Source: Trichobilharzia szidati (lineage: Eukaryota > Platyhelminthes > Trematoda > Strigeidida > Schistosomatidae). From it: a stretch of 64,000 nt of DNA. Location of the stretch: NCBI GenBank assembly GCA_944472155.2, contig OX235279.1, positions 142,944,920-143,008,919 of the forward strand. The letters are read 5' to 3'. The translations under genes were made by a program, and so were the position numbers. Shown one piece after another: positions 2,016-58,229 of the stretch; position 1 is the first letter of the stretch, and each line of letters starts with the position of its first letter. The notes beneath the pieces are model-generated. The model was not told where the DNA came from. It saw nothing but the letters and a program-made list of their open reading frames with translations, and did no database searches.

Positions 2016-2134
2016 CTCAAAGACTGCTAACAATAACACAAGATGGAGTTCCTAGTATCTTAGCAAGAAGTCGCAATCAGTAGAGTCCTGGTGACATTGT
2101 AAGGCAGTGAATATATATATATATATTATGAATT

Positions 2135-2300
2135 CGCAGAAGTCGGGACCCATAGGCTACTGAGCCCTATCCTAGTGTCTTAGTGGTCACCACGATAGCT
2201 TTGTTAATTGAAGGTTACGGTTTCAAGATCCTTAGGGATCGCAGGTGAGTACTACTGAAGGGTTGTCAGCCAGAAAAGAAAAACTGCCTAGTACTGACTG
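2135..2300 (+). repeat. tRNA-like SINE fragment
   Basis: A tRNA-like layout is visible: an A-box-like word around 2178-2195 (CTTAGTGGTCACCACGA) and a B-box-like word GGTTTCAAGATCC about 40 bases later. The body resembles the element at 57195-57420 on the other strand. It is too decayed to be a tRNA gene. Confidence 0.4.
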
Positions 2301-2389
2301 GTCCTGCGAATTTGTATAGTTTCTCTCCAGCCAGCTACAAAGAGAATATCGTTCTAACGCACCGAAAATGTTTGTTCGTAATAGAGACT

Positions 2390-3329: not shown

Positions 3330-3495
3330 TACAAGTTGGAGAACCACTGGAAAACCTGGGAGTACTGGGCAGCCGTTTCGTCCTAGTTTGGGACTCATCA
3401 GTGGCCCGCATCCCCTGTGGTTCAAACCCAACACCTTCCCGTTACAAGGCAAGCTCGCAGACAATTATTCTACTAGGACCCGATCCATGAATTCC
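3330..3495 (-). repeat. Sm-alpha-like SINE, older single copy
   Basis: Minus-strand copy of the same SINE that forms the array 220 bp downstream, clearly diverged. The hammerhead lies at 3362-3405. Its CUGAUGA and GAAA boxes are intact, but the base before the cleavage position is C instead of U (GCC for GUC) and stem I has mismatches, so it is probably inactive. The A box is decayed and the B box is altered. Confidence 0.75.
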
Positions 3496-3559
3496 AAATT
3501 ATTAACTAAAGTATTTGAATATTCTAGGTATTGATAGTAAACTTCATACAAAAACCCAT

Positions 3560-3705: not shown

Positions 3706-3710
3706 ACAAA

Positions 3711-3719
3711 GTTAGATTT
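3711..3719 (+). repeat. 9-bp direct repeat at left edge of array
   Basis: GTTAGATTT lies at the left boundary of the tandem array and again at 13781-13789, exactly at the right boundary. Its last three bases also fit the array unit, so the exact junction is ambiguous by three bases. It looks like a target-site duplication around the whole array. Confidence 0.6.
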
Positions 3720-3770
3720 AATTGTATGGAGGATTTCATCATGAGCTGACATCAGTTAGAGAACCACTGG

Positions 3771-3774
3771 AAAA
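3771..3774 (-). terminator. Candidate Pol III terminator (TTTT) in each array unit
   Basis: On the minus strand TTTT follows the last base of the hammerhead by seven bases. It is the first TTTT after the tRNA-like promoter, so a Pol III transcript starting near 3901 would be about 130 nt and would include the ribozyme. The same site recurs every 399 bp. Confidence 0.5.
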
Positions 3775-3781
3775 CCTGGGA

Positions 3782-3827
3782 GTACTGGACAGCTGTTTCG
3801 TCCTAGTTTGGGACTCTTCAGCAGTAC
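3782..3827 (-). ncRNA. Hammerhead ribozyme, representative of 25 (repeats every 399 bp up to 13358-13403)
   Basis: All parts of a type I hammerhead are readable on the minus strand. Stem I is GUACUG paired with CAGUAC (6 bp). The core is CUGAAGA, with only the variable position 7 differing from CUGAUGA. Stem II is GUCC/GGAC with a 7-nt loop, followed by GAAA. Helix III is the palindrome ACAGCUGU with no loop. The cleavage triplet is GUC. Schistosome Sm-alpha-type repeats are known to carry such ribozymes. Because helix III has no loop, a single RNA would form it poorly, and two head-to-tail or separate copies would pair better. Cleavage would fall between 3789 and 3788. Confidence 0.9.
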
Positions 3828-3834
3828 GCACCCA

Positions 3835-3904
3835 CCGGGATTCGAATCCAGGACCTTCTGGTTACAAGGCGAGCTCGTAGACCATTGAGCCACTGGGACC
3901 CGAT
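3835..3904 (-). promoter_or_regulatory. tRNA-like internal Pol III promoter (A and B boxes), one per array unit
   Basis: Minus strand: A box TGGCTCAATGGTCTACGAGC (3873-3892) and B box GATTCGAATCC (3838-3848), at tRNA-like spacing. In most units the B box has A in place of the second G of GGTTCGANNCC, which breaks a T-stem pair. It is not a functional tRNA gene. It is the promoter head of the SINE and lies directly 5' of the hammerhead. Confidence 0.8.
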
Positions 3905-6900
3905 CCAATGGTCCTTGAATTCTAACTTCTGCCAATTCACGACATAGCGCGACCATTTCGCAATGTCTTCTTAGATGAGTTACTGTCACATCTTCAACCT
4001 GCTGTACCCTACTGGTCACGGCTTCCCACTAGAACCCCAGGTTAACTGCCTGAATAGGGCCAGTCACTAGTGAGCATCAGATTAATTTTCAAGTATTGGT
4101 TTGGTAGGGATTTTGTTTAATTGTATGGAGGATTTCATCATGAGCTGACATCAGTTAGAGAACCACTGGAAAACCTGGGAGTACTGGACAGCTGTTTCGT
4201 CCTAGTTTGGGACTCTTCAGCAGTACGCACCCACCGGGATTCGAATCCAGGACCTTCTGGTTACAAGGCGAGCTCGTAGACCATTGAGCCACTGGGACCC
4301 GATCCAATGGTCCTTGAATTCTAACTTCTGCCAATTCACGACATAGCGCGACCATTTCGCAATGTCTTCTTAGATGAGTTACTGTCACATCTTCAACCTG
4401 CTGTACCCTACTGGTCACGGCTTCCCACTAGAACCCCAGGTTAACTGCCTGAATAGGGCCAGTCACTAGTGAGCATCAGATTAATTTTCAAGTATTGGTT
4501 TGGTAGGGATTTTGTTTAATTGTATGGAGGATTTCATCATGAGCTGACATCAGTTAGAGAACCACTGGAAAACCTGGGAGTACTGGACAGCTGTTTCGTC
4601 CTAGTTTGGGACTCTTCAGCAGTACGCACCCACCGGGATTCGAATCCAGGACCTTCTGGTTACAAGGCGAGCTCGTAGACCATTGAGCCACTGGGACCCG
4701 ATCCAATGGTCCTTGAATTCTAACTTCTGCCAATTCACGACATAGCGCGACCATTTCGCAATGTCTTCTTAGATGAGTTACTGTCACATCTTCAACCTGC
4801 TGTACCCTACTGGTCACGGCTTCCCACTAGAACCCCAGGTTAACTGCCTGAATAGGGCCAGTCACTAGTGAGCATCAGATTAATTTTCAAGTATTGGTTT
4901 GGTAGGGATTTTGTTTAATTGTATGGAGGATTTCATCATGAGCTGACATCAGTTAGAGAACCACTGGAAAACCTGGGAGTACTGGACAGCTGTTTCGTCC
5001 TAGTTTGGGACTCTTCAGCAGTACGCACCCACCGGGATTCGAATCCAGGACCTTCTGGTTACAAGGCGAGCTCGTAGACCATTGAGCCACTGGGACCCGA
5101 TCCAATGGTCCTTGAATTCTAACTTCTGCCAATTCACGACATAGCGCGACCATTTCGCAATGTCTTCTTAGATGAGTTACTGTCACATCTTCAACCTGCT
5201 GTACCCTACTGGTCACGGCTTCCCACTAGAACCCCAGGTTAACTGCCTGAATAGGGCCAGTCACTAGTGAGCATCAGATTAATTTTCAAGTATTGGTTTG
5301 GTAGGGATTTTGTTTAATTGTATGGAGGATTTCATCATGAGCTGACATCAGTTAGAGAACCACTGGAAAACCTGGGAGTACTGGACAGCTGTTTCGTCCT
5401 AGTTTGGGACTCTTCAGCAGTACGCACCCACCGGGATTCGAATCCAGGACCTTCTGGTTACAAGGCGAGCTCGTAGACCATTGAGCCACTGGGACCCGAT
5501 CCAATGGTCCTTGAATTCTAACTTCTGCCAATTCACGACATAGCGCGACCATTTCGCAATGTCTTCTTAGATGAGTTACTGTCACATCTTCAACCTGCTG
5601 TACCCTACTGGTCACGGCTTCCCACTAGAACCCCAGGTTAACTGCCTGAATAGGGCCAGTCACTAGTGAGCATCAGATTAATTTTCAAGTATTGGTTTGG
5701 TAGGGATTTTGTTTAATTGTATGGAGGATTTCATCATGAGCTGACATCAGTTAGAGAACCACTGGAAAACCTGGGAGTACTGGACAGCTGTTTCGTCCTA
5801 GTTTGGGACTCTTCAGCAGTACGCACCCACCGGGATTCGAATCCAGGACCTTCTGGTTACAAGGCGAGCTCGTAGACCATTGAGCCACTGGGACCCGATC
5901 CAATGGTCCTTGAATTCTAACTTCTGCCAATTCACGACATAGCGCGACCATTTCGCAATGTCTTCTTAGATGAGTTACTGTCACATCTTCAACCTGCTGT
6001 ACCCTACTGGTCACGGCTTCCCACTAGAACCCCAGGTTAACTGCCTGAATAGGGCCAGTCACTAGTGAGCATCAGATTAATTTTCAAGTATTGGTTTGGT
6101 AGGGATTTTGTTTAATTGTATGGAGGATTTCATCATGAGCTGACATCAGTTAGAGAACCACTGGAAAACCTGGGAGTACTGGACAGCTGTTTCGTCCTAG
6201 TTTGGGACTCTTCAGCAGTACGCACCCACCGGGATTCGAATCCAGGACCTTCTGGTTACAAGGCGAGCTCGTAGACCATTGAGCCACTGGGACCCGATCC
6301 AATGGTCCTTGAATTCTAACTTCTGCCAATTCACGACATAGCGCGACCATTTCGCAATGTCTTCTTAGATGAGTTACTGTCACATCTTCAACCTGCTGTA
6401 CCCTACTGGTCACGGCTTCCCACTAGAACCCCAGGTTAACTGCCTGAATAGGGCCAGTCACTAGTGAGCATCAGATTAATTTTCAAGTATTGGTTTGGTA
6501 GGGATTTTGTTTAATTGTATGGAGGATTTCATCATGAGCTGACATCAGTTAGAGAACCACTGGAAAACCTGGGAGTACTGGACAGCTGTTTCGTCCTAGT
6601 TTGGGACTCTTCAGCAGTACGCACCCACCGGGATTCGAATCCAGGACCTTCTGGTTACAAGGCGAGCTCGTAGACCATTGAGCCACTGGGACCCGATCCA
6701 ATGGTCCTTGAATTCTAACTTCTGCCAATTCACGACATAGCGCGACCATTTCGCAATGTCTTCTTAGATGAGTTACTGTCACATCTTCAACCTGCTGTAC
6801 CCTACTGGTCACGGCTTCCCACTAGAACCCCAGGTTAACTGCCTGAATAGGGCCAGTCACTAGTGAGCATCAGATTAATTTTCAAGTATTGGTTTGGTAG

Positions 6901-9900
6901 GGATTTTGTTTAATTGTATGGAGGATTTCATCATGAGCTGACATCAGTTAGAGAACCACTGGAAAACCTGGGAGTACTGGACAGCTGTTTCGTCCTAGTT
7001 TGGGACTCTTCAGCAGTACGCACCCACCGGGATTCGAATCCAGGACCTTCTGGTTACAAGGCGAGCTCGTAGACCATTGAGCCACTGGGACCCGATCCAA
7101 TGGTCCTTGAATTCTAACTTCTGCCAATTCACGACATAGCGCGACCATTTCGCAATGTCTTCTTAGATGAGTTACTGTCACATCTTCAACCTGCTGTACC
7201 CTACTGGTCACGGCTTCCCACTAGAACCCCAGGTTAACTGCCTGAATAGGGCCAGTCACTAGTGAGCATCAGATTAATTTTCAAGTATTGGTTTGGTAGG
7301 GATTTTGTTTAATTGTATGGAGGATTTCATCATGAGCTGACATCAGTTAGAGAACCACTGGAAAACCTGGGAGTACTGGACAGCTGTTTCGTCCTAGTTT
7401 GGGACTCTTCAGCAGTACGCACCCACCGGGATTCGAATCCAGGACCTTCTGGTTACAAGGCGAGCTCGTAGACCATTGAGCCACTGGGACCCGATCCAAT
7501 GGTCCTTGAATTCTAACTTCTGCCAATTCACGACATAGCGCGACCATTTCGCAATGTCTTCTTAGATGAGTTACTGTCACATCTTCAACCTGCTGTACCC
7601 TACTGGTCACGGCTTCCCACTAGAACCCCAGGTTAACTGCCTGAATAGGGCCAGTCACTAGTGAGCATCAGATTAATTTTCAAGTATTGGTTTGGTAGGG
7701 ATTTTGTTTAATTGTATGGAGGATTTCATCATGAGCTGACATCAGTTAGAGAACCACTGGAAAACCTGGGAGTACTGGACAGCTGTTTCGTCCTAGTTTG
7801 GGACTCTTCAGCAGTACGCACCCACCGGGATTCGAATCCAGGACCTTCTGGTTACAAGGCGAGCTCGTAGACCATTGAGCCACTGGGACCCGATCCAATG
7901 GTCCTTGAATTCTAACTTCTGCCAATTCACGACATAGCGCGACCATTTCGCAATGTCTTCTTAGATGAGTTACTGTCACATCTTCAACCTGCTGTACCCT
8001 ACTGGTCACGGCTTCCCACTAGAACCCCAGGTTAACTGCCTGAATAGGGCCAGTCACTAGTGAGCATCAGATTAATTTTCAAGTATTGGTTTGGTAGGGA
8101 TTTTGTTTAATTGTATGGAGGATTTCATCATGAGCTGACATCAGTTAGAGAACCACTGGAAAACCTGGGAGTACTGGACAGCTGTTTCGTCCTAGTTTGG
8201 GACTCTTCAGCAGTACGCACCCACCGGGATTCGAATCCAGGACCTTCTGGTTACAAGGCGAGCTCGTAGACCATTGAGCCACTGGGACCCGATCCAATGG
8301 TCCTTGAATTCTAACTTCTGCCAATTCACGACATAGCGCGACCATTTCGCAATGTCTTCTTAGATGAGTTACTGTCACATCTTCAACCTGCTGTACCCTA
8401 CTGGTCACGGCTTCCCACTAGAACCCCAGGTTAACTGCCTGAATAGGGCCAGTCACTAGTGAGCATCAGATTAATTTTCAAGTATTGGTTTGGTAGGGAT
8501 TTTGTTTAATTGTATGGAGGATTTCATCATGAGCTGACATCAGTTAGAGAACCACTGGAAAACCTGGGAGTACTGGACAGCTGTTTCGTCCTAGTTTGGG
8601 ACTCTTCAGCAGTACGCACCCACCGGGATTCGAATCCAGGACCTTCTGGTTACAAGGCGAGCTCGTAGACCATTGAGCCACTGGGACCCGATCCAATGGT
8701 CCTTGAATTCTAACTTCTGCCAATTCACGACATAGCGCGACCATTTCGCAATGTCTTCTTAGATGAGTTACTGTCACATCTTCAACCTGCTGTACCCTAC
8801 TGGTCACGGCTTCCCACTAGAACCCCAGGTTAACTGCCTGAATAGGGCCAGTCACTAGTGAGCATCAGATTAATTTTCAAGTATTGGTTTGGTAGGGATT
8901 TTGTTTAATTGTATGGAGGATTTCATCATGAGCTGACATCAGTTAGAGAACCACTGGAAAACCTGGGAGTACTGGACAGCTGTTTCGTCCTAGTTTGGGA
9001 CTCTTCAGCAGTACGCACCCACCGGGATTCGAATCCAGGACCTTCTGGTTACAAGGCGAGCTCGTAGACCATTGAGCCACTGGGACCCGATCCAATGGTC
9101 CTTGAATTCTAACTTCTGCCAATTCACGACATAGCGCGACCATTTCGCAATGTCTTCTTAGATGAGTTACTGTCACATCTTCAACCTGCTGTACCCTACT
9201 GGTCACGGCTTCCCACTAGAACCCCAGGTTAACTGCCTGAATAGGGCCAGTCACTAGTGAGCATCAGATTAATTTTCAAGTATTGGTTTGGTAGGGATTT
9301 TGTTTAATTGTATGGAGGATTTCATCATGAGCTGACATCAGTTAGAGAACCACTGGAAAACCTGGGAGTACTGGACAGCTGTTTCGTCCTAGTTTGGGAC
9401 TCTTCAGCAGTACGCACCCACCGGGATTCGAATCCAGGACCTTCTGGTTACAAGGCGAGCTCGTAGACCATTGAGCCACTGGGACCCGATCCAATGGTCC
9501 TTGAATTCTAACTTCTGCCAATTCACGACATAGCGCGACCATTTCGCAATGTCTTCTTAGATGAGTTACTGTCACATCTTCAACCTGCTGTACCCTACTG
9601 GTCACGGCTTCCCACTAGAACCCCAGGTTAACTGCCTGAATAGGGCCAGTCACTAGTGAGCATCAGATTAATTTTCAAGTATTGGTTTGGTAGGGATTTT
9701 GTTTAATTGTATGGAGGATTTCATCATGAGCTGACATCAGTTAGAGAACCACTGGAAAACCTGGGAGTACTGGACAGCTGTTTCGTCCTAGTTTGGGACT
9801 CTTCAGCAGTACGCACCCACCGGGATTCGAATCCAGGACCTTCTGGTTACAAGGCGAGCTCGTAGACCATTGAGCCACTGGGACCCGATCCAATGGTCCT

Positions 9901-12898
9901 TGAATTCTAACTTCTGCCAATTCACGACATAGCGCGACCATTTCGCAATGTCTTCTTAGATGAGTTACTGTCACATCTTCAACCTGCTGTACCCTACTGG
10001 TCACGGCTTCCCACTAGAACCCCAGGTTAACTGCCTGAATAGGGCCAGTCACTAGTGAGCATCAGATTAATTTTCAAGTATTGGTTTGGTAGGGATTTTG
10101 TTTAATTGTATGGAGGATTTCATCATGAGCTGACATCAGTTAGAGAACCACTGGAAAACCTGGGAGTACTGGACAGCTGTTTCGTCCTAGTTTGGGACTC
10201 TTCAGCAGTACGCACCCACCGGGATTCGAATCCAGGACCTTCTGGTTACAAGGCGAGCTCGTAGACCATTGAGCCACTGGGACCCGATCCAATGGTCCTT
10301 GAATTCTAACTTCTGCCAATTCACGACATAGCGCGACCATTTCGCAATGTCTTCTTAGATGAGTTACTGTCACATCTTCAACCTGCTGTACCCTACTGGT
10401 CACGGCTTCCCACTAGAACCCCAGGTTAACTGCCTGAATAGGGCCAGTCACTAGTGAGCATCAGATTAATTTTCAAGTATTGGTTTGGTAGGGATTTTGT
10501 TTAATTGTATGGAGGATTTCATCATGAGCTGACATCAGTTAGAGAACCACTGGAAAACCTGGGAGTACTGGACAGCTGTTTCGTCCTAGTTTGGGACTCT
10601 TCAGCAGTACGCACCCACCGGGATTCGAATCCAGGACCTTCTGGTTACAAGGCGAGCTCGTAGACCATTGAGCCACTGGGACCCGATCCAATGGTCCTTG
10701 AATTCTAACTTCTGCCAATTCACGACATAGCGCGACCATTTCGCAATGTCTTCTTAGATGAGTTACTGTCACATCTTCAACCTGCTGTACCCTACTGGTC
10801 ACGGCTTCCCACTAGAACCCCAGGTTAACTGCCTGAATAGGGCCAGTCACTAGTGAGCATCAGATTAATTTTCAAGTATTGGTTTGGTAGGGATTTTGTT
10901 TAATTGTATGGAGGATTTCATCATGAGCTGACATCAGTTAGAGAACCACTGGAAAACCTGGGAGTACTGGACAGCTGTTTCGTCCTAGTTTGGGACTCTT
11001 CAGCAGTACGCACCCACCGGGATTCGAATCCAGGACCTTCTGGTTACAAGGCGAGCTCGTAGACCATTGAGCCACTGGGACCCGATCCAATGGTCCTTGA
11101 ATTCTAACTTCTGCCAATTCACGACATAGCGCGACCATTTCGCAATGTCTTCTTAGATGAGTTACTGTCACATCTTCAACCTGCTGTACCCTACTGGTCA
11201 CGGCTTCCCACTAGAACCCCAGGTTAACTGCCTGAATAGGGCCAGTCACTAGTGAGCATCAGATTAATTTTCAAGTATTGGTTTGGTAGGGATTTTGTTT
11301 AATTGTATGGAGGATTTCATCATGAGCTGACATCAGTTAGAGAACCACTGGAAAACCTGGGAGTACTGGACAGCTGTTTCGTCCTAGTTTGGGACTCTTC
11401 AGCAGTACGCACCCACCGGGATTCGAATCCAGGACCTTCTGGTTACAAGGCGAGCTCGTAGACCATTGAGCCACTGGGACCCGATCCAATGGTCCTTGAA
11501 TTCTAACTTCTGCCAATTCACGACATAGCGCGACCATTTCGCAATGTCTTCTTAGATGAGTTACTGTCACATCTTCAACCTGCTGTACCCTACTGGTCAC
11601 GGCTTCCCACTAGAACCCCAGGTTAACTGCCTGAATAGGGCCAGTCACTAGTGAGCATCAGATTAATTTTCAAGTATTGGTTTGGTAGGGATTTTGTTTA
11701 ATTGTATGGAGGATTTCATCATGAGCTGACATCAGTTAGAGAACCACTGGAAAACCTGGGAGTACTGGACAGCTGTTTCGTCCTAGTTTGGGACTCTTCA
11801 GCAGTACGCACCCACCGGGATTCGAATCCAGGACCTTCTGGTTACAAGGCGAGCTCGTAGACCATTGAGCCACTGGGACCCGATCCAATGGTCCTTGAAT
11901 TCTAACTTCTGCCAATTCACGACATAGCGCGACCATTTCGCAATGTCTTCTTAGATGAGTTACTGTCACATCTTCAACCTGCTGTACCCTACTGGTCACG
12001 GCTTCCCACTAGAACCCCAGGTTAACTGCCTGAATAGGGCCAGTCACTAGTGAGCATCAGATTAATTTTCAAGTATTGGTTTGGTAGGGATTTTGTTTAA
12101 TTGTATGGAGGATTTCATCATGAGCTGACATCAGTTAGAGAACCACTGGAAAACCTGGGAGTACTGGACAGCTGTTTCGTCCTAGTTTGGGACTCTTCAG
12201 CAGTACGCACCCACCGGGATTCGAATCCAGGACCTTCTGGTTACAAGGCGAGCTCGTAGACCATTGAGCCACTGGGACCCGATCCAATGGTCCTTGAATT
12301 CTAACTTCTGCCAATTCACGACATAGCGCGACCATTTCGCAATGTCTTCTTAGATGAGTTACTGTCACATCTTCAACCTGCTGTACCCTACTGGTCACGG
12401 CTTCCCACTAGAACCCCAGGTTAACTGCCTGAATAGGGCCAGTCACTAGTGAGCATCAGATTAATTTTCAAGTATTGGTTTGGTAGGGATTTTGTTTAAT
12501 TGTATGGAGGATTTCATCATGAGCTGACATCAGTTAGAGAACCACTGGAAAACCTGGGAGTACTGGACAGCTGTTTCGTCCTAGTTTGGGACTCTTCAGC
12601 AGTACGCACCCACCGGGATTCGAATCCAGGACCTTCTGGTTACAAGGCGAGCTCGTAGACCATTGAGCCACTGGGACCCGATCCAATGGTCCTTGAATTC
12701 TAACTTCTGCCAATTCACGACATAGCGCGACCATTTCGCAATGTCTTCTTAGATGAGTTACTGTCACATCTTCAACCTGCTGTACCCTACTGGTCACGGC
12801 TTCCCACTAGAACCCCAGGTTAACTGCCTGAATAGGGCCAGTCACTAGTGAGCATCAGATTAATTTTCAAGTATTGGTTTGGTAGGGATTTTGTTTAA

Positions 12899-13297
12899 TT
12901 GTATGGAGGATTTCATCATGAGCTGACATCAGTTAGAGAACCACTGGAAAACCTGGGAGTACTGGACAGCTGTTTCGTCCTAGTTTGGGACTCTTCAGCA
13001 GTACGCACCCACCGGGATTCGAACCCAGGACCTTCTGGTTACAAGGCGAGCTCGTAGACCATTGAGCCACTGGGACCCGATCCAATGGTCCTTGAATTCT
13101 AACTTCTGCCAACTCACGACATAGCGCGACCATTTCGCAATGTCTTCTTAGATGAGTTACTGTCACATCTTCAACCTGCTGTACCCTACTGGTCACGGCT
13201 TCCCACTAGAACCCCAGGTTAACTGCCTGAATAGGGCCAGTCACTAGTGAGCATCAGATTAATTTTCAAGTATTGGTTTGGTAGGGATTTTGTTTAA
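12899..13297 (-). repeat. Variant array unit with restored B box
   Basis: This is the only unit in which I see substitutions. At 13024 the minus-strand B box becomes GGTTCGAATCC, the consensus form, restoring a G-C pair in the tRNA-like T stem. A second change is T to C at 13113. The single dispersed copies also differ here, so this unit may keep an older state. Confidence 0.75.
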
Positions 13298-13780
13298 TTG
13301 TATGGAGGATTTCATCATGAGCTGACATCAGTTAGAGAACCACTGGAAAACCTGGGAGTACTGGACAGCTGTTTCGTCCTAGTTTGGGACTCTTCAGCAG
13401 TACGCACCCACCGGGATTCGAATCCAGGACCTTCTGGTTACAAGGCGAGCTCGTAGACCATTGAGCCACTGGGACCCGATCCAATGGTCCTTGAATTCTA
13501 ACTTCTGCCAATTCACGACATAGCGCGACCATTTCGCAATGTCTTCTTAGATGAGTTACTGTCACATCTTCAACCTGCTGTACCCTACTGGTCACGGCTT
13601 CCCACTAGAACCCCAGGTTAACTGCCTGAATAGGGCCAGTCACTAGTGAGCATCAGATTAATTTTCAAGTATTGGTTTGGTAGGGATTTTGTTTAATTGT
13701 ATGGAGGATTTCATCATGAGCTGACATCAGTTAGAGAACCACTGGAAAACCTGGGAGTACTGGACAGCTGTTTCGTCCTA

Positions 13781-13789
13781 GTTAGATTT
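13781..13789 (+). repeat. 9-bp direct repeat at right edge of array
   Basis: GTTAGATTT, identical to 3711-3719. Its first three bases also match the unit. The array breaks off here in the middle of the hammerhead of the 26th, partial unit. Confidence 0.6.
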
Positions 13790-13869
13790 CACATGACAAT
13801 GAATTCCGCCCAAGTGCACAAATGGCGAATGGGTTAGTTTCGTAACAAAGTTCATTCCTGTGTCGTGGT

Positions 13870-13960
13870 GTCGTCGGTGTGTACTGCTCAGGAGGCGCAG
13901 ACTAGGATGGACAGTCCGTCCAGTGCTATTTGGTTTCCAATGACCTCTAGATGATGTTGT
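13870..13960 (+). repeat. Decayed Sm-alpha-like SINE fragment, plus strand
   Basis: GTACTG (13881-13886), ACTAGGATGGACAG, CCGTCCAGTGC and a following TGGTTTCCAATGACCTC correspond, with many changes, to the ribozyme part of the array unit read in the opposite direction. The core is destroyed. Confidence 0.5.
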
Positions 13961-19851: not shown

Positions 19852-21045
19852 TTATATGGATAAAAGTGGATCTTCATTGTTTATCGTGTTTAAATTCACT
19901 TGCCTTAGTAAATGTCGTGGCATTCCATAGATATGCGGTTCATCTTCACTATTCACATAGTTCTCATCATCTTCTGGCTTGTTTATCACTAGCCACGGTT
20001 GTAAATCACTTTCTGAAAGTTGATAATCAAGGTTGCTTGGTCGTGTATGACGACTATGATAATATCTGTTTCTATGGTTTACATAGGAATTTCTATCTGC
20101 ATCATTGTGATCGTCGTCTTCAATATCAGACTGATGACGAGGATGATATGGTTCGTCCAGTAGTCCTTCTTCCTCTTTTTGCTTATGTATTAATTGTTTC
20201 AATATATATAAACGTATCTTCTCCAGTGTTAACTGTTCCGCTTCGCTTAAACGTCTTGTATTCTGTTCAGAATTCTTCAGTAAGTCCACAGTGTCAATGT
20301 CATCATTATCAAAATGAATGAATTCTTTAGGTAAACTGGGCAAATTTTTTCGCCTCTTGTATCGACTACTGGTAGTAGTATCTTCCAAATTAACCATTTC
20401 CTCATCATTTCCATAGTTATGGCTCTGGGCTATTTTGTCGTAAATGTCTTCGTTGACAGCTCGGTAATCATTATCGATGGGACCGATTTTTCGTTCGTCT
20501 AATAAGTAATCATGATCTATGATTGGTACCATAATGTTGTTTTCCCTGATTTTATCGGATTCATCATCCAAAATGTTAGCACGCTTGTCATTGTTCCACA
20601 GTGATTTCAGTGACTTTAATACTTCACGTGCAACTTTAGCCCGGTTTTTAGCCTCTAAAGCTGCTTTCTGTAATGATTCAGCTTGATGAACAGATTCACT
20701 TGCCTCTTGCTCCAGTTGTATTGCTCTAGTGATCTCAGAAGTAACTTGTGCGCTCAGGGCTGATTGCAACTGAAGGAGTTCCTCTTCATTCGGTATTGAT
20801 AAAGTTGATAGGGTATCCGTTGTCGTAGACACTTTTGACGATGATATTGGCTTGTAAAGTGGTGCTAATGATAATAGTACATTTTCACTATTCAAAGCAT
20901 TATCATAGCCATCCTTGTCAATGTCTTCTCTTATGCTTGGAAAAGAACTCTCATAATTTTTGCCACTTGAAGGTAGGGAAAGAGTATGCGTTGTACAGAT
21001 TGCAATAGTTATTAAAAAATATGCAAAGTATAAATTCCAGGACAT
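19852..21045 (-). CDS. Secreted acidic coiled-coil protein, function unknown
   Basis: A 397-residue frame without stops, the clearest host-type gene here. Residues 1-23 form a typical signal peptide: short polar start, hydrophobic core 5-18 and a small-residue end. Residues 86-148 are a long heptad-like helix rich in E, Q, A and K, probably coiled coil. A basic cluster KRRK at 230-233 could be a processing site. Residues 262-296 are a second charged helix, and 299-340 are rich in H, D and R. There are no cysteines after the signal peptide and no transmembrane span, so the protein is probably secreted. The start is chosen because the signal peptide follows it directly. I recognise no family; a secreted stage-specific protein or a prohormone-like precursor is possible but unproven. 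Further exons cannot be excluded. An antisense 151-codon frame (19866-20321) is a shadow. Confidence 0.75.
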   Translation of the reverse strand: MSWNLYFAYFLITIAICTTHTLSLPSSGKNYESSFPSIREDIDKDGYDNALNSENVLLSLAPLYKPISSSKVSTTTDTLSTLSIPNEEELLQLQSALSAQVTSEITRAIQLEQEASESVHQAESLQKAALEAKNRAKVAREVLKSLKSLWNNDKRANILDDESDKIRENNIMVPIIDHDYLLDERKIGPIDNDYRAVNEDIYDKIAQSHNYGNDEEMVNLEDTTTSSRYKRRKNLPSLPKEFIHFDNDDIDTVDLLKNSEQNTRRLSEAEQLTLEKIRLYILKQLIHKQKEEEGLLDEPYHPRHQSDIEDDDHNDADRNSYVNHRNRYYHSRHTRPSNLDYQLSESDLQPWLVINKPEDDENYVNSEDEPHIYGMPRHLLRQVNLNTINNEDPLLSI

Positions 21046-21254
21046 AGTTTACAGTCTGACAGTATGTGATCAGCGTACTCTCGTCAAATTATCATTATAG
21101 CGTTGAATAATTATGCAATGTTCATTATTATAGTGTGTGTACGTGAGTTTCTTTTTTTATCTAATGAGTATTTCACACCAAATGTTTCAAATAACTGATT
21201 TCACTGCTACGACCACACTCATGTTTTTAAATGGCAGTATTTCTGAATACTTAC

Positions 21255-25830: not shown

Positions 25831-26302
25831 AGTTAAATTAGAAATAAGCTTTGTCAGCTAAAGGATACTGTGGAGCCTTTAAAACAAAACAATTTAGTTT
25901 TTCTAATACCCTGTCTGTAATGACTGTCAGGTCAAATACATAGGTTAAAGTAGTAGAACAGGGGCAGTCAGACTAGCTGAACACAAAAACCTACCAAAAT
26001 CTAGATTGGTTGACCAGAATAAGATAAGAAATCTAGAGAACAGTCCAGCTATAGCACTCACTTCATGCAATTGCACACAACCATAAGATGGCAGTTCCAA
26101 AATCTAATGTAACAGGGTGAATGGAGGGAGACATTGATAACAGAAGCTTTGTTTATCGAACCAACTGCAAATACGTGTAATAGGAATGATTCAACACCCG
26201 TCCCAGATATCCGGAAAATTCTACTACCCCAACGACGACAAATAGGAGCAAAGAAAGAAAACTATAAAACTCAAGTGTCAAAGTCGTGTGATTACAATTG
26301 AC

Positions 26303-26342
26303 GATATGATTATGAACAATAAATTTTGTTCGAAACGTCATC
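26303..26342 (+). ncRNA. Hammerhead-like motif in PLE terminal repeat
   Basis: Stem I GAT/ATC, core ATGATTA in place of CUGAUGA, stem II GAACAA/TTGTTC, then GAA, a two-base-pair helix III formed by the palindrome ACGT, and C at the cleavage position. PLE terminal repeats are known to contain minimal hammerheads with a very short helix III. Two core bases differ, so activity is doubtful. Confidence 0.5.
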
Positions 26343-26529
26343 CAGTAAATAATACTGTTTCACTGTATGATACATCTCATAAACAAACTAATATGGAAGC
26401 TTCATCAGTTAATATTACTGTACAAAACTGTGTGATTTACCAAAATAAAATCTTATCTATAATGGAGTTATACTCTACCACAGTGCCCAAGTTTTGTACT
26501 TATATCAATAAAATAATACCAGTCTGAAC

Positions 26530-27028
26530 ACAAATAGAATGCAGAACAATGGTAAACTTATGACAGTGTAAACATCGAATCTGTGTAAAAGTTAGAAAAG
26601 GCAAAATCAAAGCCTTAATTTATCTGGATGGATTATATGGACTGTAACTATACCATCAAATTCAGTGGCCTATTCTTATGCTTAAATAATGAACAGAATT
26701 TCTTTTCTCGTTCGGATGACACCCATAAATTAGCTGTATAGATTAGCGTTACTGAATATCACATAGAGCTAAATATAAAACTTGCTACAGATATCATGAA
26801 TAGTCATTTTTGAGAAATATAAAAGAAGAGACGTTCAGAGAAGAGTAAATCTTTTCAGCGATATCACTTGCAAGCTGTATAATAATATATATATATAATA
26901 AATTTTCTTAGCAACAAAAAGAATATTTCTGAAGATGCTGTTAAAATTGCAAATTTTTTGGATAGCAAATCATGTATTATAAACGGCGTTAATCGGGCTA
27001 CAGAGTTCTGCACTTAACGCATGAGTTA
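26530..27028. other. Pre-insertion flank of the PLE, no recognised gene
   Basis: AT-rich. A short TATATA run near 26883-26897. No gene seen. Confidence 0.35.
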
Positions 27029-27029
27029 C

Positions 27030-27041
27030 TAATGCTCCTGC
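27030..27041 (+). repeat. Target-site duplication, left copy
   Basis: TAATGCTCCTGC, repeated exactly at 29622-29633 on the other side of the PLE. Confidence 0.8.
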
Positions 27042-27151
27042 TCCTCCAGTAAATAATACTGTTTCACTGTGTGATATACCTAATAAACAAACTAATATGG
27101 AATTACTTACTACCACAGTGCCCAAGTTTTACACATATATTAATATGACTT

Positions 27152-29284
27152 ATGGTCTTCCTGTACGAAGACTTATCAATAAACTCACTCGACTTTCACA
27201 GACTGAAGCAAAATATGAAAATCATCGTATTTTCAACATTCGATGCCCAAAAAAATGAAATCATTCCTAAATATCTACGTCTACGAGCTCCAGTTCCAAC
27301 GGACAGAGTTAGAAGCAGAATAGAAAGCCTACAAAAATTATGCCTGAAAGAAGAAATCCACAGAATCGTTAAAAAGTTGGAACATATCAGATCTGAAATT
27401 GAGCAATTAAAACAAAAGATAAAAGGAATAGTTACCAATACAGATTATGATCTTATAACACAGTCCTCCGGCATTGCAAAATCAGCAACTTTCAAAAAGT
27501 CAAAAAATAGTCAAATCAAAAAGTTCAACAAATTATTAGAAGAGAAATCTTCATCTCAGAATAATGAAGTCGACAATCCAAAGTCAACGGCGATCGATAA
27601 ATCAAAGTGGGTTATCAATCTCTCAACACATATATTAAATACTACGGAAATAAGTGTTTTAGAAAAGGAACTAAATTTCGATGTATCTGTAGACAAGCTG
27701 AAACCTGAGGATGTCATCCCTAAAATAGAAATAGCACTAAGTGGAATAGACAAAACTACGGCTGATGAAGTACGGGCACAATGTGCACTAACATTAAAAC
27801 GACAAAAATGTGGAAAGCCAAACCTGACAAAACAAGAGTTAGAAGCCCTGAAACACCTTAAGAATAACAAGGATCTAGTTATCACAAAGTCAGACAAAGG
27901 AAATGCAACGGTAGTATTAGACAAATCAGACTACTTGGACAAGGTAAACACTCACATACGAACAGGACCATATGAGGAAATTAATAAACCAATTGATACA
28001 GTTATGAATAAAGTTAAGAAATCCACAGCGGATCTTATACGCCGAATGAAGCCGTTTCTAGGTGAGTCTAAGTGGTTTAATTTAATGCCCAAAACTAATA
28101 ACCCCAGTAGGATGTATGGTGTTGTTAAAGTTCATAAGTCAGGATACCCTATTAGGCCTATAGTTGATTTTAGAAATTCACCTACTTATGAATTATCTAA
28201 ATATTTAGCCATGGTATTAAATCCCCTAAAAATCCACTCGAAATCTAGACTAACTAATTCTTATGAACTCAAACACAGATTAGATAATTTAAAATTAGAT
28301 AATGAAGAAAAAATGGTTAGTTTTGACATAGTCAGTTTATACACACGTATACCAATAAATATGGCTATAGAGGCAGTCAGAAACGAACTCATTTCTGACC
28401 AAGAACTCGAACTTAGGACAAAAGTGCCACTTGAGGACATAATGCTGGGAGTACAGCTATGCCTGACTTCCACAGTATTTAAATTCCAAGGGAAAATATA
28501 CAAACAAACTGAGGGAGTTGCCATGGGATCACCAATATCCCCAGTGGTAGCAGATATATTCATGGATAAGTGGGAAAGCATAGCGATTAAAACGTTCACC
28601 CCCACCCCAAAAGTATGGTGGAGGTACGTAGACGACACATTCACTGTACTTAGAACACAAGATATAGATAGGTTTTTGGAACATATCAACTCTAAGGTTG
28701 AAGCAATTCAATTCACTTATGAATTGGAAAATCAGGAAGGGGAGCTCCCAATGTTAGATTGTAAGGTAAAGAGGAAAGAAGATGGGAAGGTAAACACTAG
28801 TGTGTACAGGAAACCCACACACTCCAACAGATATTTGGACTTCCGATCATCCCATCCTATGTCAGTAAAAATAGGATTGGTGAAATGTTTAAATGACAGA
28901 GCACAAAAATTAAGTAGTACCAAAGAAAATCTAAAACAGGAACTAACACACATAAAAGAAGCCTTAAAACTTAATAATTACCCGGATAAATTAGTCAGGA
29001 AATATGTAAAGAAAAGTAAAAATAAAATAAATAATGATAATGATAATAGTGATAATAATAATAATATTAATGACGACACCAACAATAAAGAATCTAAATC
29101 ATCAGTAGTAATTCCATACAAGGAAGGAACCTCGGAAGCCTTACGCAGAATTCTTAACAAGGCAGGAATAAAAATGGCATTTAAACCCACAAACTCAATT
29201 AGAAACAAGCTTTGTCGGTTAAAGGATCAATCCTGTGGAGCCTTTAGAACAAAACAATTTAGTTTATTTAATACCCTGCAATGA
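27152..29284 (+). CDS. Penelope-like reverse transcriptase (710 codons, loses endonuclease by frameshift)
   Basis: Order of parts: an N-terminal region with charged helices (about 45-115), a conserved PLE domain around 'TKSDKGNATVVLDKSDY' (about 248-264), and the RT palm. Palm motifs: 'SFDIVSLYTRIP' with aspartate 392, 'GVAMGSP' at 455-461, and 'WRYVDDTF' with YVDD at 492-495. So the three catalytic aspartates (392, 494, 495) are present. Residues 520-560 give 'LPMLDCKVKRKEDGKVNTS'. An Asn/Asp-rich low-complexity stretch around residues 628-650 comes from an AAT/GAT microsatellite. The frame should continue into a GIY-YIG domain but ends after 'KDQSCGAFRTKQF', out of phase; the endonuclease continues in another frame from 29235. 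The enzyme copies element RNA into DNA at chromosome ends or nicks. Confidence 0.85.
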   Translation: MVFLYEDLSINSLDFHRLKQNMKIIVFSTFDAQKNEIIPKYLRLRAPVPTDRVRSRIESLQKLCLKEEIHRIVKKLEHIRSEIEQLKQKIKGIVTNTDYDLITQSSGIAKSATFKKSKNSQIKKFNKLLEEKSSSQNNEVDNPKSTAIDKSKWVINLSTHILNTTEISVLEKELNFDVSVDKLKPEDVIPKIEIALSGIDKTTADEVRAQCALTLKRQKCGKPNLTKQELEALKHLKNNKDLVITKSDKGNATVVLDKSDYLDKVNTHIRTGPYEEINKPIDTVMNKVKKSTADLIRRMKPFLGESKWFNLMPKTNNPSRMYGVVKVHKSGYPIRPIVDFRNSPTYELSKYLAMVLNPLKIHSKSRLTNSYELKHRLDNLKLDNEEKMVSFDIVSLYTRIPINMAIEAVRNELISDQELELRTKVPLEDIMLGVQLCLTSTVFKFQGKIYKQTEGVAMGSPISPVVADIFMDKWESIAIKTFTPTPKVWWRYVDDTFTVLRTQDIDRFLEHINSKVEAIQFTYELENQEGELPMLDCKVKRKEDGKVNTSVYRKPTHSNRYLDFRSSHPMSVKIGLVKCLNDRAQKLSSTKENLKQELTHIKEALKLNNYPDKLVRKYVKKSKNKINNDNDNSDNNNNINDDTNNKESKSSVVIPYKEGTSEALRRILNKAGIKMAFKPTNSIRNKLCRLKDQSCGAFRTKQFSLFNTLQ

Positions 29285-29504
29285 TTGTCAGGTCAAATAC
29301 ATAGGTCAAACTAGTAGAACAGGGGCAGTCAGACTAGCTGAACATAAAAACTTAGCAAAATCTAGATTGGTTGACCCGAATAAGATAAGAAATCTAGAGA
29401 ATAATTCAGCTATAGCACTACATGCAGTCACACACAACCATACAATAGGATGGGATAGGATGACATTTTTAAAACCTAATGTCACAGAGTATAGGGAGAG
29501 ATAG
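29235..29504 (+). pseudogene. GIY-YIG endonuclease domain of the PLE, frameshifted
   Basis: Reads 'NNLVYLIPCNDCQVKYIGQT' and 'AVRLAEHKN', the GIY and YIG motifs and the R..EH motif of the PLE endonuclease. It is in a different frame from the RT frame that it overlaps by 50 bases. It stops (TAG at 29502-29504) right before a conserved 'ITEALFIE', which contains the Glu expected in the nuclease active site. So two lesions separate it from a working RT-endonuclease fusion. Confidence 0.8.
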
Positions 29505-29621
29505 ATAACAGAAGCTTTGTTTATCGAATCAACTACAAATACATGTAATAGGAATGATTCATCAATCCAGTAAATAATACTGTTTCACTGTGTGATATAC
29601 CTAATAAACAAACTAATATGG

Positions 29622-29633
29622 TAATGCTCCTGC
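29622..29633 (+). repeat. Target-site duplication, right copy
   Basis: TAATGCTCCTGC, identical to 27030-27041. Confidence 0.8.
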
Positions 29634-35359: not shown

Positions 35360-35390
35360 CATATATATTTATGCATATATTCAGGTAGGT

Positions 35391-35692
35391 AGTTACCTGG
35401 GTTCTAGTAGGAAGTCATGACCAGTGGGGTGCAGCAGGTTGAGTGTGAGCACAAATACTTGCCGATGACATTCGCTAGGCGTCGCACCATATCGTGAATC
35501 GCCAGAAGTTGGAATTCATGGACCATCGGATCGGCTTGCAGTGGCTCAATGGTCTTCCAGCTCGTCGTGTAACCAGAAGGTCCTGGTTTTGAACCTCCAT
35601 GGGTGCGCACTGTGAACACTCCCATTACTCCACTCCATTACTCCTATGTTTCCCAATAGTCCTGTAACCGGTGTCAGTTTATGAAGGAACCA
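35391..35692 (+). repeat. Sm-alpha-like SINE, near full-length diverged copy
   Basis: Reads in the same order as the minus strand of the array unit: GGTTCTAGTAGGAAGTC, then CAGCAGGTTGA, then the tRNA-like head with CAGTGGCTCAATGGTC (35539-35554) and a B-box remnant GGTTTTGAACC (35584-35594). The ribozyme region is destroyed. Begins about 30 bp after the PLE inverted repeat ends. Confidence 0.8.
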
Positions 35693-36175
35693 TTACAGGT
35701 TCTCATGCTATCTGGAAACTGACTTCAGGATGAATCTCCCAATTTAAAAGATTGAAGAAGACCAGTGCAAGACTTTATGGTGAAATTAGTGCATTCCTTT
35801 TATGATAGTATATATTCACAATTACTGATGAAATGATTTCCCTCACCTTTATCTCCTGTAAAATAGCACTCAGAAACTGATGAAATCTATATTAGTTTAG
35901 TAAAACATTCACAATTAGCATCCCTTAATTATTTTATAAATCACTGGCACTGATTTTATTCAATTTTGAGCAATCCAATCAATTTTGTGTTTGAATTTCC
36001 ATTAAAAGGTCACCAAACATGAATTCTTGTGGTAATTCGAATTTTGCTGATTGTATTTCACTTATATTCCAAGGAAATACCAGTTCTCTGAGATATATAA
36101 TGTTTGTTTTGTAGCGAATTCCTGATTGAAGGAAAGACCACATCGTCAAACTCTCTAAAAATCAAGTTAAGCCCA
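35693..36175. other. No recognised gene
   Basis: AT-rich. Nothing assigned. Confidence 0.35.
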
Positions 36176-43506: not shown

Positions 43507-44265
43507 TTATTCAAACCTGGATGGCCAAGGTAATGATAATGACTGGACTAACTTCTTCTGGGTGCATAAATTAGGCTTATTAATATGAATCCCCACAGCC
43601 TCCGCAATATTTAGAAGTCGAACTCTTAAAGCGAAATTGAGATTCATAGGTATGCGGTAAATGACCCTGAAAGCATGATTAACGCCAATCTTGTGTTCTG
43701 TCTCCACAAGATGCGCCAGAATAGCACTGCGAATAGATTTTGTTTGACCTTTGCTTAACCAGGCAGGGTGATGTTCGGAAATTCGACGAGAAACACGCCT
43801 AATTGTACGGCCTATGTAACTGGCTCCACAGGAGCAGTTAAATTGGTAGATACACATGGAAGAGGCGAAATTAGGCAGTTCGTCTTTTATTCCCGAACGC
43901 AGAAGAGGAGTGGTTTTGAAGATACAGCGCAATTGAGCAGCAGGGAATGTTCTTTTTACCGCATTTCTGAGGCGATGTGTTAGTATTTCACTTGTGTTGT
44001 CTCCTAGGAACTGCATCTGCAAGAACAAGGATTTCTTTGGAACTGTTGGTACCTTGGATTGTTTTGGTTTTAGATTCATATTCCTATCAATAAACTTTTC
44101 CGGATAACCATTCTCACTAAGCAAACGTTTAATATTGTTGAGCTCCTCGTCAAGACATTCATCCGAGCAAATCTCTCTTGCTCTGTGGACCAGGCACTTT
44201 ATCAGATTGGTCCACAGAGCAAGAGAGATTTGCTCGGATGAATGTCTTGACGAGGAGCTCAACAA
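43507..44265 (-). pseudogene. Family B PLE C-terminal half with GIY-YIG endonuclease (left arm)
   Basis: 252 codons; about the first 20-25 run across the palindrome centre and do not belong to the element. Then 'VHRAREICSDECLDEELNNI', 'ENGYPEKFIDRN', 'VPKKSLFLQMQFLGDN' and 'RLRNAVKRTFPAAQL', the PLE linker. The nuclease follows: 'CIYQFNCSCGASYIGRT' (138-154) with Y140, Y150-IG and the cysteines, 'RISEHHPAW' (161-169), 'HLVETEHKI' and 'NIAEAVGI' (219-226) with E222. The domain is complete and uninterrupted, but no RT is attached, so the element cannot move by itself. Confidence 0.8.
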
Positions 44266-44893
44266 TATTAAACGTTTGCTTAGTGAGAATGGTTATCCGG
44301 AAAAGTTTATTGATAGGAATATGAATCTAAAACCAAAACAATCCAAGGTACCAACAGTTCCAAAGAAATCCTTGTTCTTGCAGATGCAGTTCCTAGGAGA
44401 CAACACAAGTGAAATACTAACACATCGCCTCAGAAATGCGGTAAAAAGAACATTCCCTGCTGCTCAATTGCGCTGTATCTTCAAAACCACTCCTCTTCTG
44501 CGTTCGGGAATAAAAGACGAACTGCCTAATTTCGCCTCTTCCATGTGTATCTACCAATTTAACTGCTCCTGTGGAGCCAGTTACATAGGCCATACAATTA
44601 GGCGTGTTTCTCGTCGAATTTCCGAACATCACCCTGCCTGGTTAAGCAAAGGTCAAACAAAATCTATTCGCAGTGCTATTCTGGCGCATCTTGTGGAGAC
44701 AGAACACAAGATTGACGTTAATCATGCTTTCAGGGTCATTTACCGCATACCTATGAATCTCAATTTCGCTTTAAGAGTTCGACTTCTAAATATTGCGGAG
44801 GCTGTGGGGATTCATATTAATAAGCCTAATTTATGCACCCAGAAGAAGTTAGTCCAGTCATTATCATTACCTTGGCCATCCAGGTTTGAATAA
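44135..44893 (+). pseudogene. Family B PLE C-terminal half with GIY-YIG endonuclease (right arm)
   Basis: Mirror copy of the left-arm frame. Two visible residue changes: 'YIGHT' instead of 'YIGRT' at residue 153, and D for G in 'HKID' at 194. Otherwise the same domain order and residues. Its start also runs through the palindrome centre. Confidence 0.8.
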
Positions 44894-51449: not shown

Positions 51450-51836
51450 ATGCTAGACACCTTGAACATTAAGGAAAAGGTTATGTGTTCAGTTGACATA
51501 GAATCTTTATTCACCAATGTTTCCCTTAATGAAACTGTTGATTTAATTTGCGATTACATCACAAGCAATGAAATAAACTTACCTATTCCTGTAACTAACA
51601 TCAGAGACATCATCTTAATGTGTACAGAAAATATTAGATTCACCTTTCAAGAAAAGGCATACAAACAAATTGATGGTGTTGCGATGGGTAGCCCTCTTGG
51701 GCCCCTGTTAGCAGATATGTTCATGTAGAAATTGGAAAGACAAATGCAAGGTATGCTTGGAGAATTTATGCTGTATAAACGTTATGTAGATGATACTCTT
51801 ACTATTGGTAATGATAGTAAATGTATTGAAAACTTT
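51450..51836 (+). pseudogene. Family B PLE reverse-transcriptase palm, interrupted
   Basis: 'CSVDIESLFTNVSLNET' gives RT motif A with its aspartate, and 'DGVAMGSPLGPLLADMFM' gives motif B. A stop (TAG at 51726-51728) follows, after which 'YKRYVDDTLTI' gives the YVDD site. The frame is then cut by the nested insertion within 'CIENF'. Confidence 0.8.
51824..51836 (+). repeat. 13-bp target-site duplication, left copy
   Basis: TATTGAAAACTTT, repeated at 52137-52149. Confidence 0.8.
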
Positions 51837-52136
51837 CCATATTAGTTTGTTTATTAGGTATATCACACAGTGAAACAGTATTATTTACTGGATGACGTTT
51901 CGAACAAAATTTATTGTTCATAATCATATCATATCATATATCTAATAAACAAACTAACATGGTATAAAACTCAAGTTTTGAGGTAGTGTGATAATAATTG
52001 ATATGATTATGAACAATAAATTTTGTTCGAAACGTCACCCAGTAAATAATACTGTTTCACTGTGTGATATACCTAATAAACAAACTAATATGGAATTACT
52101 TACTACCACAGTGCCCAAGTTTTACACATATATTAA
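51837..52136 (+). mobile_element. Nested insertion of a PLE terminal repeat with inverted 5' piece
   Basis: A 300-bp insert between 13-bp duplications. The first about 95 bp (51837-51931) are the inverted form of the terminal-repeat block that follows in direct orientation from about 51997 to 52095. The insert ends in the ACCACAGTGCCCAAGTTTT region, as in the family A element. There is no coding sequence: a solo, non-autonomous copy mobilised in trans. Confidence 0.85.
52000..52039 (+). ncRNA. Hammerhead-like motif in the nested terminal repeat
   Basis: Same block as 26303-26342: core ATGATTA, stem II GAACAA/TTGTTC, GAA, palindrome ACGT, C. The 3' side of stem I has changed to ACC, so GAT no longer pairs fully. 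The inverted counterpart lies within 51880-51930 on the minus strand. Confidence 0.4.
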
Positions 52137-52149
52137 TATTGAAAACTTT
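52137..52149 (+). repeat. 13-bp target-site duplication, right copy
   Basis: TATTGAAAACTTT, identical to 51824-51836. The host element resumes here. Confidence 0.8.
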
Positions 52150-54815: not shown

Positions 54816-55885
54816 ATTCATAATATGGGAATATTCCACACTATCAAATCTTATTATAATTTGACTATAAGTTTTCTGCTGATGTAAACTGAATTTATAA
54901 AGTTACTGTTTTAAACAATCTAGTGAGTAACATCTTTACGGGCATACACCCTCATATATCCATTTAAACATTTTGTGAAATAATGTATGCTTAGAACAGG
55001 ATATAGGAAATAATGCTTTTTAAGGAGGAATGCAGTTTTCTCTACAGCTCGAAAGAAGTCAATAAGACTCCGGGTCTTCAGAAATTATCATAAGGGAGCA
55101 CTGTATCCCGGCTTTATCTAAAAAAGATAATTCCTCTTGTCAGTAAATCTTATCCACTCTCACAATAAGAACGACAGTTTGGGTCACAATGTTAACTTGA
55201 TTTTGATTTCTACACGTTGTGCTGAACTTATAGTTCAGTAGCCAATCACCTTAACTGTCGTTTTACGTAATAATTTAACCTTTGTCTACTCATTTCTTTT
55301 TGTTCCTTCCCTATCAAATTAAATTTAAGACTTTCCATCTTATTATGTACAATTAAATGAAGCATATTTGATTATCAACTAACTGTTTTTTCATCACTTT
55401 GCCGAGAATTAGTAAATTCTGTAACCAACAAGTTTGTATGGTGTAATACAGTGATTGCACATTAATGAGTGGATGACGCTTAAAGTACGATTTGTTGTTA
55501 TTGTTGTTGCTTTTTCAAGTCTTATTAAATGGAGCAGGTATCTAACATATCTGTCTTATCTTACTATGCTCCGTTATAGACTAGAACTCTAGGGACTGAG
55601 TTTTCTTTCAACTTGTTGATTCTGAAACTTGAAAGAATGAGAATAACAAAATGCAACCGGATAATATGAACTCGTGGATTTCGAACACACACAACAAAGA
55701 ACCTGAAACTAAGAGATTCACAAAATTTAAACAGTGCAGTTATTTGCCACCCACGAAATTGGTTATATTGTAAATAATCTGAGTAAACAAAAGGAATACA
55801 GCTTTCTTCACTTTACCAAGGTTATTGGCATTTAAAGGTTGAAACCAAATCTATGCTTGCAGAAAGGGAGAGAGAGAGAGTGGTG
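54816..55885. other. No recognised gene
   Basis: AT-rich DNA with a short GA run at 55867-55880. Nothing assigned. Confidence 0.35.
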
Positions 55886-55904
55886 CACCTGTCACTGCAC
55901 TGAC

Positions 55905-56075
55905 GATTCATGAGCCACTGAATTGGATCCCAGTGGCTGAATGGTATACGAGCTTGCCTTGTAACCGGAAGGTCCTGGGTGCGTACTGCCGATCATTCCC
56001 AAACTAGGATGGAACAGCTGTCCAGTACTCCCTGGTTTTCATTGGTTCTCTAACTGATGTAAATCCGTGATCAAC
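55905..56075 (+). repeat. Sm-alpha-like SINE, plus strand, B box deleted
   Basis: CCCAGTGGCTGAATGGTATACGAGC is the A-box region (from 55929). The sequence between GGTCCTGG and GTGCGTACTG, which should hold the B box, is missing. The ribozyme region (55983-56028) has stem I GTACTG/CAGTAC and CAGCTGTC intact but a broken core (CCGATCA) and TGGAA instead of CGAAA, so it is inactive. Confidence 0.75.
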
Positions 56076-57190: not shown

Positions 57191-57194
57191 TTGC

Positions 57195-57420
57195 ATAAAA
57201 CTATATACCACTGAGTGACTGAGATAAGCAGCTGTGCACCATGATGCCAATGGGGATCAAACCTGGAACCTGCATGTCAAGAAGCGTGTCCGCTGATCAT
57301 TCAGTCACCACGACTGAGTCCAATGGTCCATAAATTCTAACCTCTACCATTTCGCGAAATTCAGCTGTACAGTCAGCTAATTTTATCATGGAGTATTCAT
57401 TTTCACACCCTATTTGGTGC
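57195..57420 (-). repeat. tRNA-like SINE, related to the hammerhead SINE at its 5' side
   Basis: Minus strand: B box AGGTTTGATCCCC (57252-57264) and an A-box-like word GTCGTGGTGACTGAATGATC (about 57292-57311). The stretch CCAATGGTCCATAAATTCTAACCTCT (57320-57345) matches the region just upstream of the tRNA head in the array unit. No hammerhead is seen. Confidence 0.5.
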
Positions 57421-58225: not shown

Positions 58226-58229
58226 TAAG

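Follow-up and report, generated by a model that had tools for sequence, protein, structure and literature searches.

A tandem array of predicted hammerhead repeats with insertion-like borders in Trichobilharzia szidati

The window analysed here is a stretch of 64,000 nucleotides of Trichobilharzia szidati, a trematode blood fluke of birds (contig OX235279.1, positions 142,944,920 to 143,008,919 of the forward strand). It contains, at 3717-13783, a tandem array of a 399-bp repeat, each unit of which carries a predicted type I hammerhead ribozyme, and a 10-bp direct repeat, AGTTAGATTT, stands at both borders of the array. The array is very probably a non-LTR (long terminal repeat) retrozyme array or an array of short interspersed nuclear elements (SINEs) of the Sm-alpha-like kind belonging to Trichobilharzia, with the minus strand as its RNA sense.

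The repeat array and its hammerheads

Tandem Repeats Finder reported a period of 399 bp and 25.2 copies, and splitting of the stretch in 399-bp steps gave 25 full units arranged head-to-tail plus 92 nt of a further unit, bearing out the 25-unit array that an earlier note on this DNA had described from the letters alone. On unit-by-unit comparison 24 of the 25 units were letter-identical; the sole variant, unit 24 (12894-13292, minus strand), differed from the others by two bases, at 13024 and 13113. Both substitutions read A to G in the RNA sense, which is the pattern that RNA editing before reverse transcription would give, although with two sites this is a mere curiosity. The unit count or the near-identity could in part be an artefact, as collapse or consensus polishing during assembly might yield 24 identical units among 25; the clean borders with their matched 10-bp repeat and the retention of two variants in one unit speak against this, and we consider it very unlikely.

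The GC content of the 399-nt unit is 47.4%. Since all of the 22 stop-to-stop frames of at least 110 aa listed for the window lie outside the array, a protein-coding array was rejected, and no separate terminal repeats (LTRs) were seen on it. Monomer positions were numbered in the RNA sense from the predicted cleavage site, partly by counting. On this map TTTT stands at 14-17, the most A/C-rich stretch at about 52-91, and the body extends to about 258; it is followed by a tRNA-like segment, which includes an A box, and by the hammerhead (360-399 and 1-6).

The Rfam model Hammerhead_1 (RF00163; gathering score, 34 bits) matched the minus strand of the array 25 times, once per unit and at 54.1 bits each (E = 2.4e-11), from the first motif at 3782-3827 to the last at 13358-13403. 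By covariance-model score all 25 are intact, in agreement with the complete hammerhead that had been claimed for every unit. The cleavage site had been placed at 3788/3789; by counting, the predicted cut in the first unit follows GUC and lies between 3788 and 3787. The expectation that a longer transcript would be cut into 399-nt monomers finds support, by analogy, in related repeats of other animals (PMC7229834). Three of five schistosome hammerhead motifs tested cleave in vitro, the other two having core or cleavage-site damage (PMC8490949).

Outside the array, a search of the whole window at E up to 0.5 gave a single hammerhead at 3362-3407 (27.3 bits), and a separate search of 55800-58800 added another at 55983-56028 (28.4 bits), both below the gathering score. 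A loose text pattern for minimal hammerheads matched seven times elsewhere in the window, one match being the copy at 3363. Relatives were also sought in IMG/VR with one exact core pattern and none was returned, a search beyond whose reach records of the window's own genome may lie.

Array borders and related copies in the window

The two copies of AGTTAGATTT occupy 3710-3719 and 13780-13789, and this flanking repeat, like the end positions of the array given below, goes beyond what the earlier note contained. The left flank ends in AAAGTTAGA where the array begins with TTTAATTG, and the array ends in CGTCCTAGTT where the right flank begins with AGATTTCACATG; the last three bases of the left copy also match the array start, and the first four bases of the right copy also match the next letters of the array. 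The repeat extends no further on either side and, on both strands of the window, occurs only at the two borders. As a control, 12 of 200,000 random border pairs drawn from the rest of the window with the same slack shared a repeat of at least 10 bp. A 10-bp target-site duplication (TSD) with microhomology at both joints accounts for all ten bases, and a duplication with such microhomology is usual in target-primed reverse transcription. ATT occurs in the target, TTAGATTT, as it often does in DNA this rich in A and T.

Read as RNA, the array has its 3' end at monomer 68-71, i.e. 68-71 nt beyond the cleavage site, and not at the cleavage site itself, as would be expected of a linear RNA that had cut itself; its 5' end lies within loop II of a hammerhead. 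Monomer 68-71 belongs to the most A/C-rich part of the unit, in which 30-nt windows starting at 60-65 reach an A/C fraction of 0.83 against a unit mean of 0.51, but this stretch makes up about one tenth of the unit, so that the placement of the 3' end within it is weak evidence by itself. Together, the ends of the array look like those of a retrotransposon insertion.

Eight related stretches were found outside the array by nhmmer (E up to 0.1), and five of them could be aligned fully or nearly so. The copy at 58219-58630 (minus strand) is a single divergent full-length copy, 84% identical by blastn, and its two ends lie at monomer about 64-71 and 58-67, within about 15 nt of the position of the array's 3' end. 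The copy at 55897-56124 (plus strand) runs across a unit junction, has lost the B-box region and contains the 28.4-bit hammerhead mentioned above. Single and tandem (or circularly permuted) forms must both have been inserted in the past, as these two copies indicate, and the crossing of a unit junction by the latter implies that tandem or circular forms are old. The remaining aligned copies are one at 35377-35693 (plus strand) with a partly deleted hammerhead, one beside the array at 3331-3500 (minus strand) in which some stem pairs of the 27.3-bit hammerhead are broken, and an old degenerate one at 2052-2306 (plus strand). A weak old copy at 13784-13957 (plus strand, 25.7 bits), opposite in orientation to the array, starts right at its right border, and further stretches were found at 57245 and at 1243-1328.

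Selection on the array as a multicopy ribozyme or circular-RNA gene useful to the fluke, for example for trans-cleavage of other RNAs, would be in keeping with 25 intact hammerheads out of 25. Recent origin alone explains this intactness, however, the whole unit and not only the hammerhead is nearly invariant, and the hammerheads of the older copies examined are damaged or sub-threshold; we regard such selection as the least credible of the explanations weighed here.

The tRNA-like segment bears on another of them. The earlier note had described each unit as a cassette for RNA polymerase III (Pol III), with A and B boxes, a hammerhead and a terminator. By motif search the A box, TGGCTCAATGG, was present (3882-3892 in unit 1, minus strand, recurring every 399 bp; coordinates of this and the next two motifs by counting), and this part of the claim stood. 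The B box did not hold in the same way: at 3838-3848 (minus strand) in unit 1, as in 24 of the 25 units, it reads GATTCGAATCC, in which the second base is A where the consensus, which we take to be GGTTCGANTCC, has G, and only unit 24 has GGTTCGAATCC, owing to its variant base at 13024. The single run of at least four T per unit in the RNA sense is a TTTT between G and C (3771-3774, minus strand), which lies seven bases past the end of the Rfam hammerhead, just as had been noted. ARAGORN with default settings and the bacterial code called no tRNA gene, and on the doubled unit at a lowered threshold it gave weak tRNA-Phe and tRNA-Ile calls.

The ends of the divergent copies were compared with this segment, leaving the stretches at 13784-13957 and 1243-1328 outside the counts. 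Four of the five aligned copies extend at least 19 nt beyond the TTTT position, and among the six copies whose 5' ends were read, those at 58219, 35377 and 2052 start at monomer 64-147, well upstream of the tRNA-like head, and those at 55897, 3331 and 57245 at monomer 242-259. The mobilised RNAs were therefore not short RNAs running from the head to TTTT, and the Pol III cassette was rejected as the mobile form. That each unit might all the same be a Pol III gene for an RNA of about 131 nt that trims its own 3' end is suggested by the matching A box, the B-box-like sequence and the TTTT just beyond each hammerhead, and 16 clusters of hammerhead-like small RNAs (55-404 nt, mostly at low level) are described from S. 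haematobium, 7 of them within SINE/tRNA repeats (PMC5993326). Against it stand the altered B box in 24 units, the failure of the default ARAGORN search, a T run just four long and the ends of the copies given above, and we judge it improbable. Short Pol III RNAs from the units may exist, though not as the inserted form.

Origin of the array

The locus is probably a retrotransposed insertion, and a retrozyme or Sm-alpha-like array formed by retrotransposition along the following lines was taken as the best overall explanation (probability, roughly 0.6). A nicked target with TTT at its 3' end would serve as primer for reverse transcription within the A/C-rich stretch, 68-71 nt beyond the cleavage site; about 25.2 units would then be copied from a template that was circular (or multimeric and uncut), until the enzyme halted inside a hammerhead and a 10-bp TSD was left. 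The array ends fit target-primed reverse transcription begun within an RNA that was circular or multimeric, and internal initiation is known in vitro from a Penelope-like enzyme: in the anole element the reverse transcriptase (RT) starts 111-118 nt into the open reading frame (ORF), at an AC-rich stem loop 85-92 nt beyond the hammerhead cut at +26, and cleavage at an ATT motif precedes this start (PMC11167929). If each hammerhead cuts well, a linear 25-mer is unlikely to have stayed uncut and served as template, whereas a circle needs one uncut motif; this argument favours rolling reverse transcription on a circle, and so do the uniformity of the units and the positions of the ends. That all or most of the units were laid down in one event is a proposal we hold tentatively, at somewhat below even odds. 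Its most specific form, in which a Penelope-type RT primed about 70 nt past the cut made about 25 rounds on a single 399-nt circle to produce 10 kb and the TSD, is slightly more doubtful.

Several observations count against formation by this route. Seven of the ten bases of AGTTAGATTT (AGTT and TTT) also fit the next letters of the array, by microhomology or chance, so that only AGA (3 bp) is unambiguously flank on both sides, and the borders are known from one locus of the family. Among the other aligned copies the 3' end varies in position (about 18, 37, 58 and 107), and direct repeats of at least 7 bp were found around none of the five divergent copies tested. The anole element inserts in vitro without need for hammerhead cleavage, unprocessed RNA is its dominant substrate there, and its RT starts at a site without homology to the cut DNA (PMC11167929), whereas TTT at the present joint fits AAA of the unit. 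A common end motif of the array and the Penelope-like element described below was rejected, as the two share only TAAACAAA and 292 of 2000 random 60-mers score as well. The predicted circular fold of the 399-nt unit (-121.2 kcal/mol, below all 60 dinucleotide shuffles; z = -2.6) holds 4 of the 12 hammerhead pairs, but the energy-model fold of the isolated 46-nt motif likewise lacks the full hammerhead, so that the folding results say little. Finally, the two changes in unit 24 occur together, and at 13024 one circular template copied in a single run would not predict what is seen: the copies at 58219 and 3331 have G, those at 35377 and 2052 have T, and that at 55897 has lost the base, so that the G of unit 24 recurs in two of the four copies keeping the site and the A of the other units in none. 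An older array, homogenised since then, may have left unit 24 as a remnant.

This last point belongs with the chief alternative, in which a short insertion (of some 1.2 or 2.2 units, for instance, flanked by the same TSD) was later expanded by unequal crossing-over, slippage or gene conversion. Near-identity of 24 units in 25 also fits recent homogenisation, as in ordinary satellite arrays; unit 24 lies near one array end and shares its base at 13024 with older copies; and the flanking repeat and the end positions would be preserved. With just two variant bases, on the other hand, there is no ladder of variants common to neighbouring units, such as successive expansions would leave. Later expansion is accordingly a possibility to be taken seriously, though we would not bet on it.

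Copying of a circle by retrotransposition, if true in the form of one circle and one event, would mean that satellite-like arrays can be born in one step. The published retrozyme cycle (circle, multimeric cDNA, integration) leaves open the enzyme, the start site and the one-step origin of long arrays. The array is of a known kind, and its insertion-like ends bear on how such arrays form: the matched flanking repeat, the definite RNA-sense 3' end and the almost complete lack of internal variation lead to a concrete prediction, namely that if further arrays in the genome end alike and have their own duplications, both the initiation site and a one-step origin follow.

As for the enzyme, in the published model tandem cDNA is made by reverse transcription of circles, with Penelope-like elements put forward as a strong candidate (PMC7229834), and such elements, proposed there for retrozymes generally, would be the likeliest source here as well. 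According to a review, the animal retrozyme repeats lack any conserved motif that would point to the enzyme (PMC7761336). Sequence at 25837-29629 (plus strand) was assigned by us, from Pfam, protein relatives and leader copies, to pieces of a putative Penelope-like element, partly arranged in tandem; machinery of this kind could mobilise the array. The frame at 27149-29284 has RVT_1 as its only Pfam match and shares 93% identity with a T. szidati protein along most of its length, with a frame change near 29228. A 930-aa relative of this frame has a C-terminal end that looks GIY-YIG-like by eye, and PF01541, presumably GIY-YIG, is present in 3 of the 57 relatives listed for it. A leader ends in AAACAAACTAA(T/C)ATGG, and by eye four of the six occurrences examined diverge within 1-2 bases after this point; several leader copies of the element stop at one and the same ATGG.

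Further pieces of Penelope-like leader form an inverted pair at 51835-52140, and an Rfam match to MIR4371 at 51880-52048 (57.7 bits, gathering score 110) is most likely just this inverted repeat. Near-identical 261-aa frames in opposite orientation, at 43507-44292 (minus strand) and 44108-44893 (plus strand), overlap at their ends and constitute a large inverted repeat; they have weak similarity (25-27%) to the Penelope-type protein. At 19852-21048 (minus strand) lies a 398-aa frame whose start looks signal-like by eye and which has no Pfam match; its relatives are a T. regenti protein (81% identity over 87% of the query) and, more distantly, five Schistosoma proteins (33-36%).

Comparison with known hammerhead repeats

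Hammerheads in schistosome SINEs are known, as the earlier note had said, both from the Sm-alpha SINE-like repeats and, more widely, from metazoan non-LTR retrozymes. In the open literature no paper was found that joins Trichobilharzia with a ribozyme, most subscription journals being outside that scope. The Sm-alpha/Sj-alpha repeats of Schistosoma, with the W36.2 family in S. mansoni, are likewise SINE-like blood-fluke repeats that contain a type I hammerhead. For S. mansoni, tRNA-derived SINEs akin to Sm-alpha and about 38,500 hammerhead candidates are given (PMC2770079), and the W36.2 and W25.2 variant motifs cleave in vitro (PMC8490949). Beyond the hammerhead, the likeness is drawn from published descriptions. 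The dispersed divergent copies (eight outside the array in the window) agree with it; in the tRNA-like segment the A box matches, and the B box is one base off in all units but one. The W36.2 units measure 332-335 bp in S. mansoni and 337-347 bp in S. rodhaini (PMC8490949), against 399 bp here in another genus.

Metazoan non-LTR retrozymes (coral, mussel, axolotl) are tandem repeats of 150-450 bp with a type I hammerhead, a GC content below 50% and no LTR; their arrays range from dimers to large multimers, and their TSDs, when present, exceed 4 bp (PMC7229834). The array agrees in having a hammerhead in each non-coding unit, in its 25.2 copies of 399 bp, its base composition and its lack of LTRs, and in a flanking repeat longer than 4 bp, seven bases of which also match the array. 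It had been called unusual; arrays of up to 62-mers have been published in coral (PMC7229834), so this judgement falls in part, and for the remainder it holds. Differences from the listed retrozymes are the tRNA-like segment, the 24 identical units and the 10-bp length of the flanking repeat. Circular RNA has been demonstrated for the coral, mussel and axolotl retrozymes (PMC7229834), whereas the present array is known as DNA sequence.

The hammerhead-bearing Penelope-like elements resemble the array in their tandem arrangement and in a hammerhead upstream of the RT start, and this start lies in A/C-rich sequence tens of nt past the cut (PMC11167929), as does the 3' end of the array. The 399-bp unit differs from them in having a full-length type I hammerhead and no long open frame.

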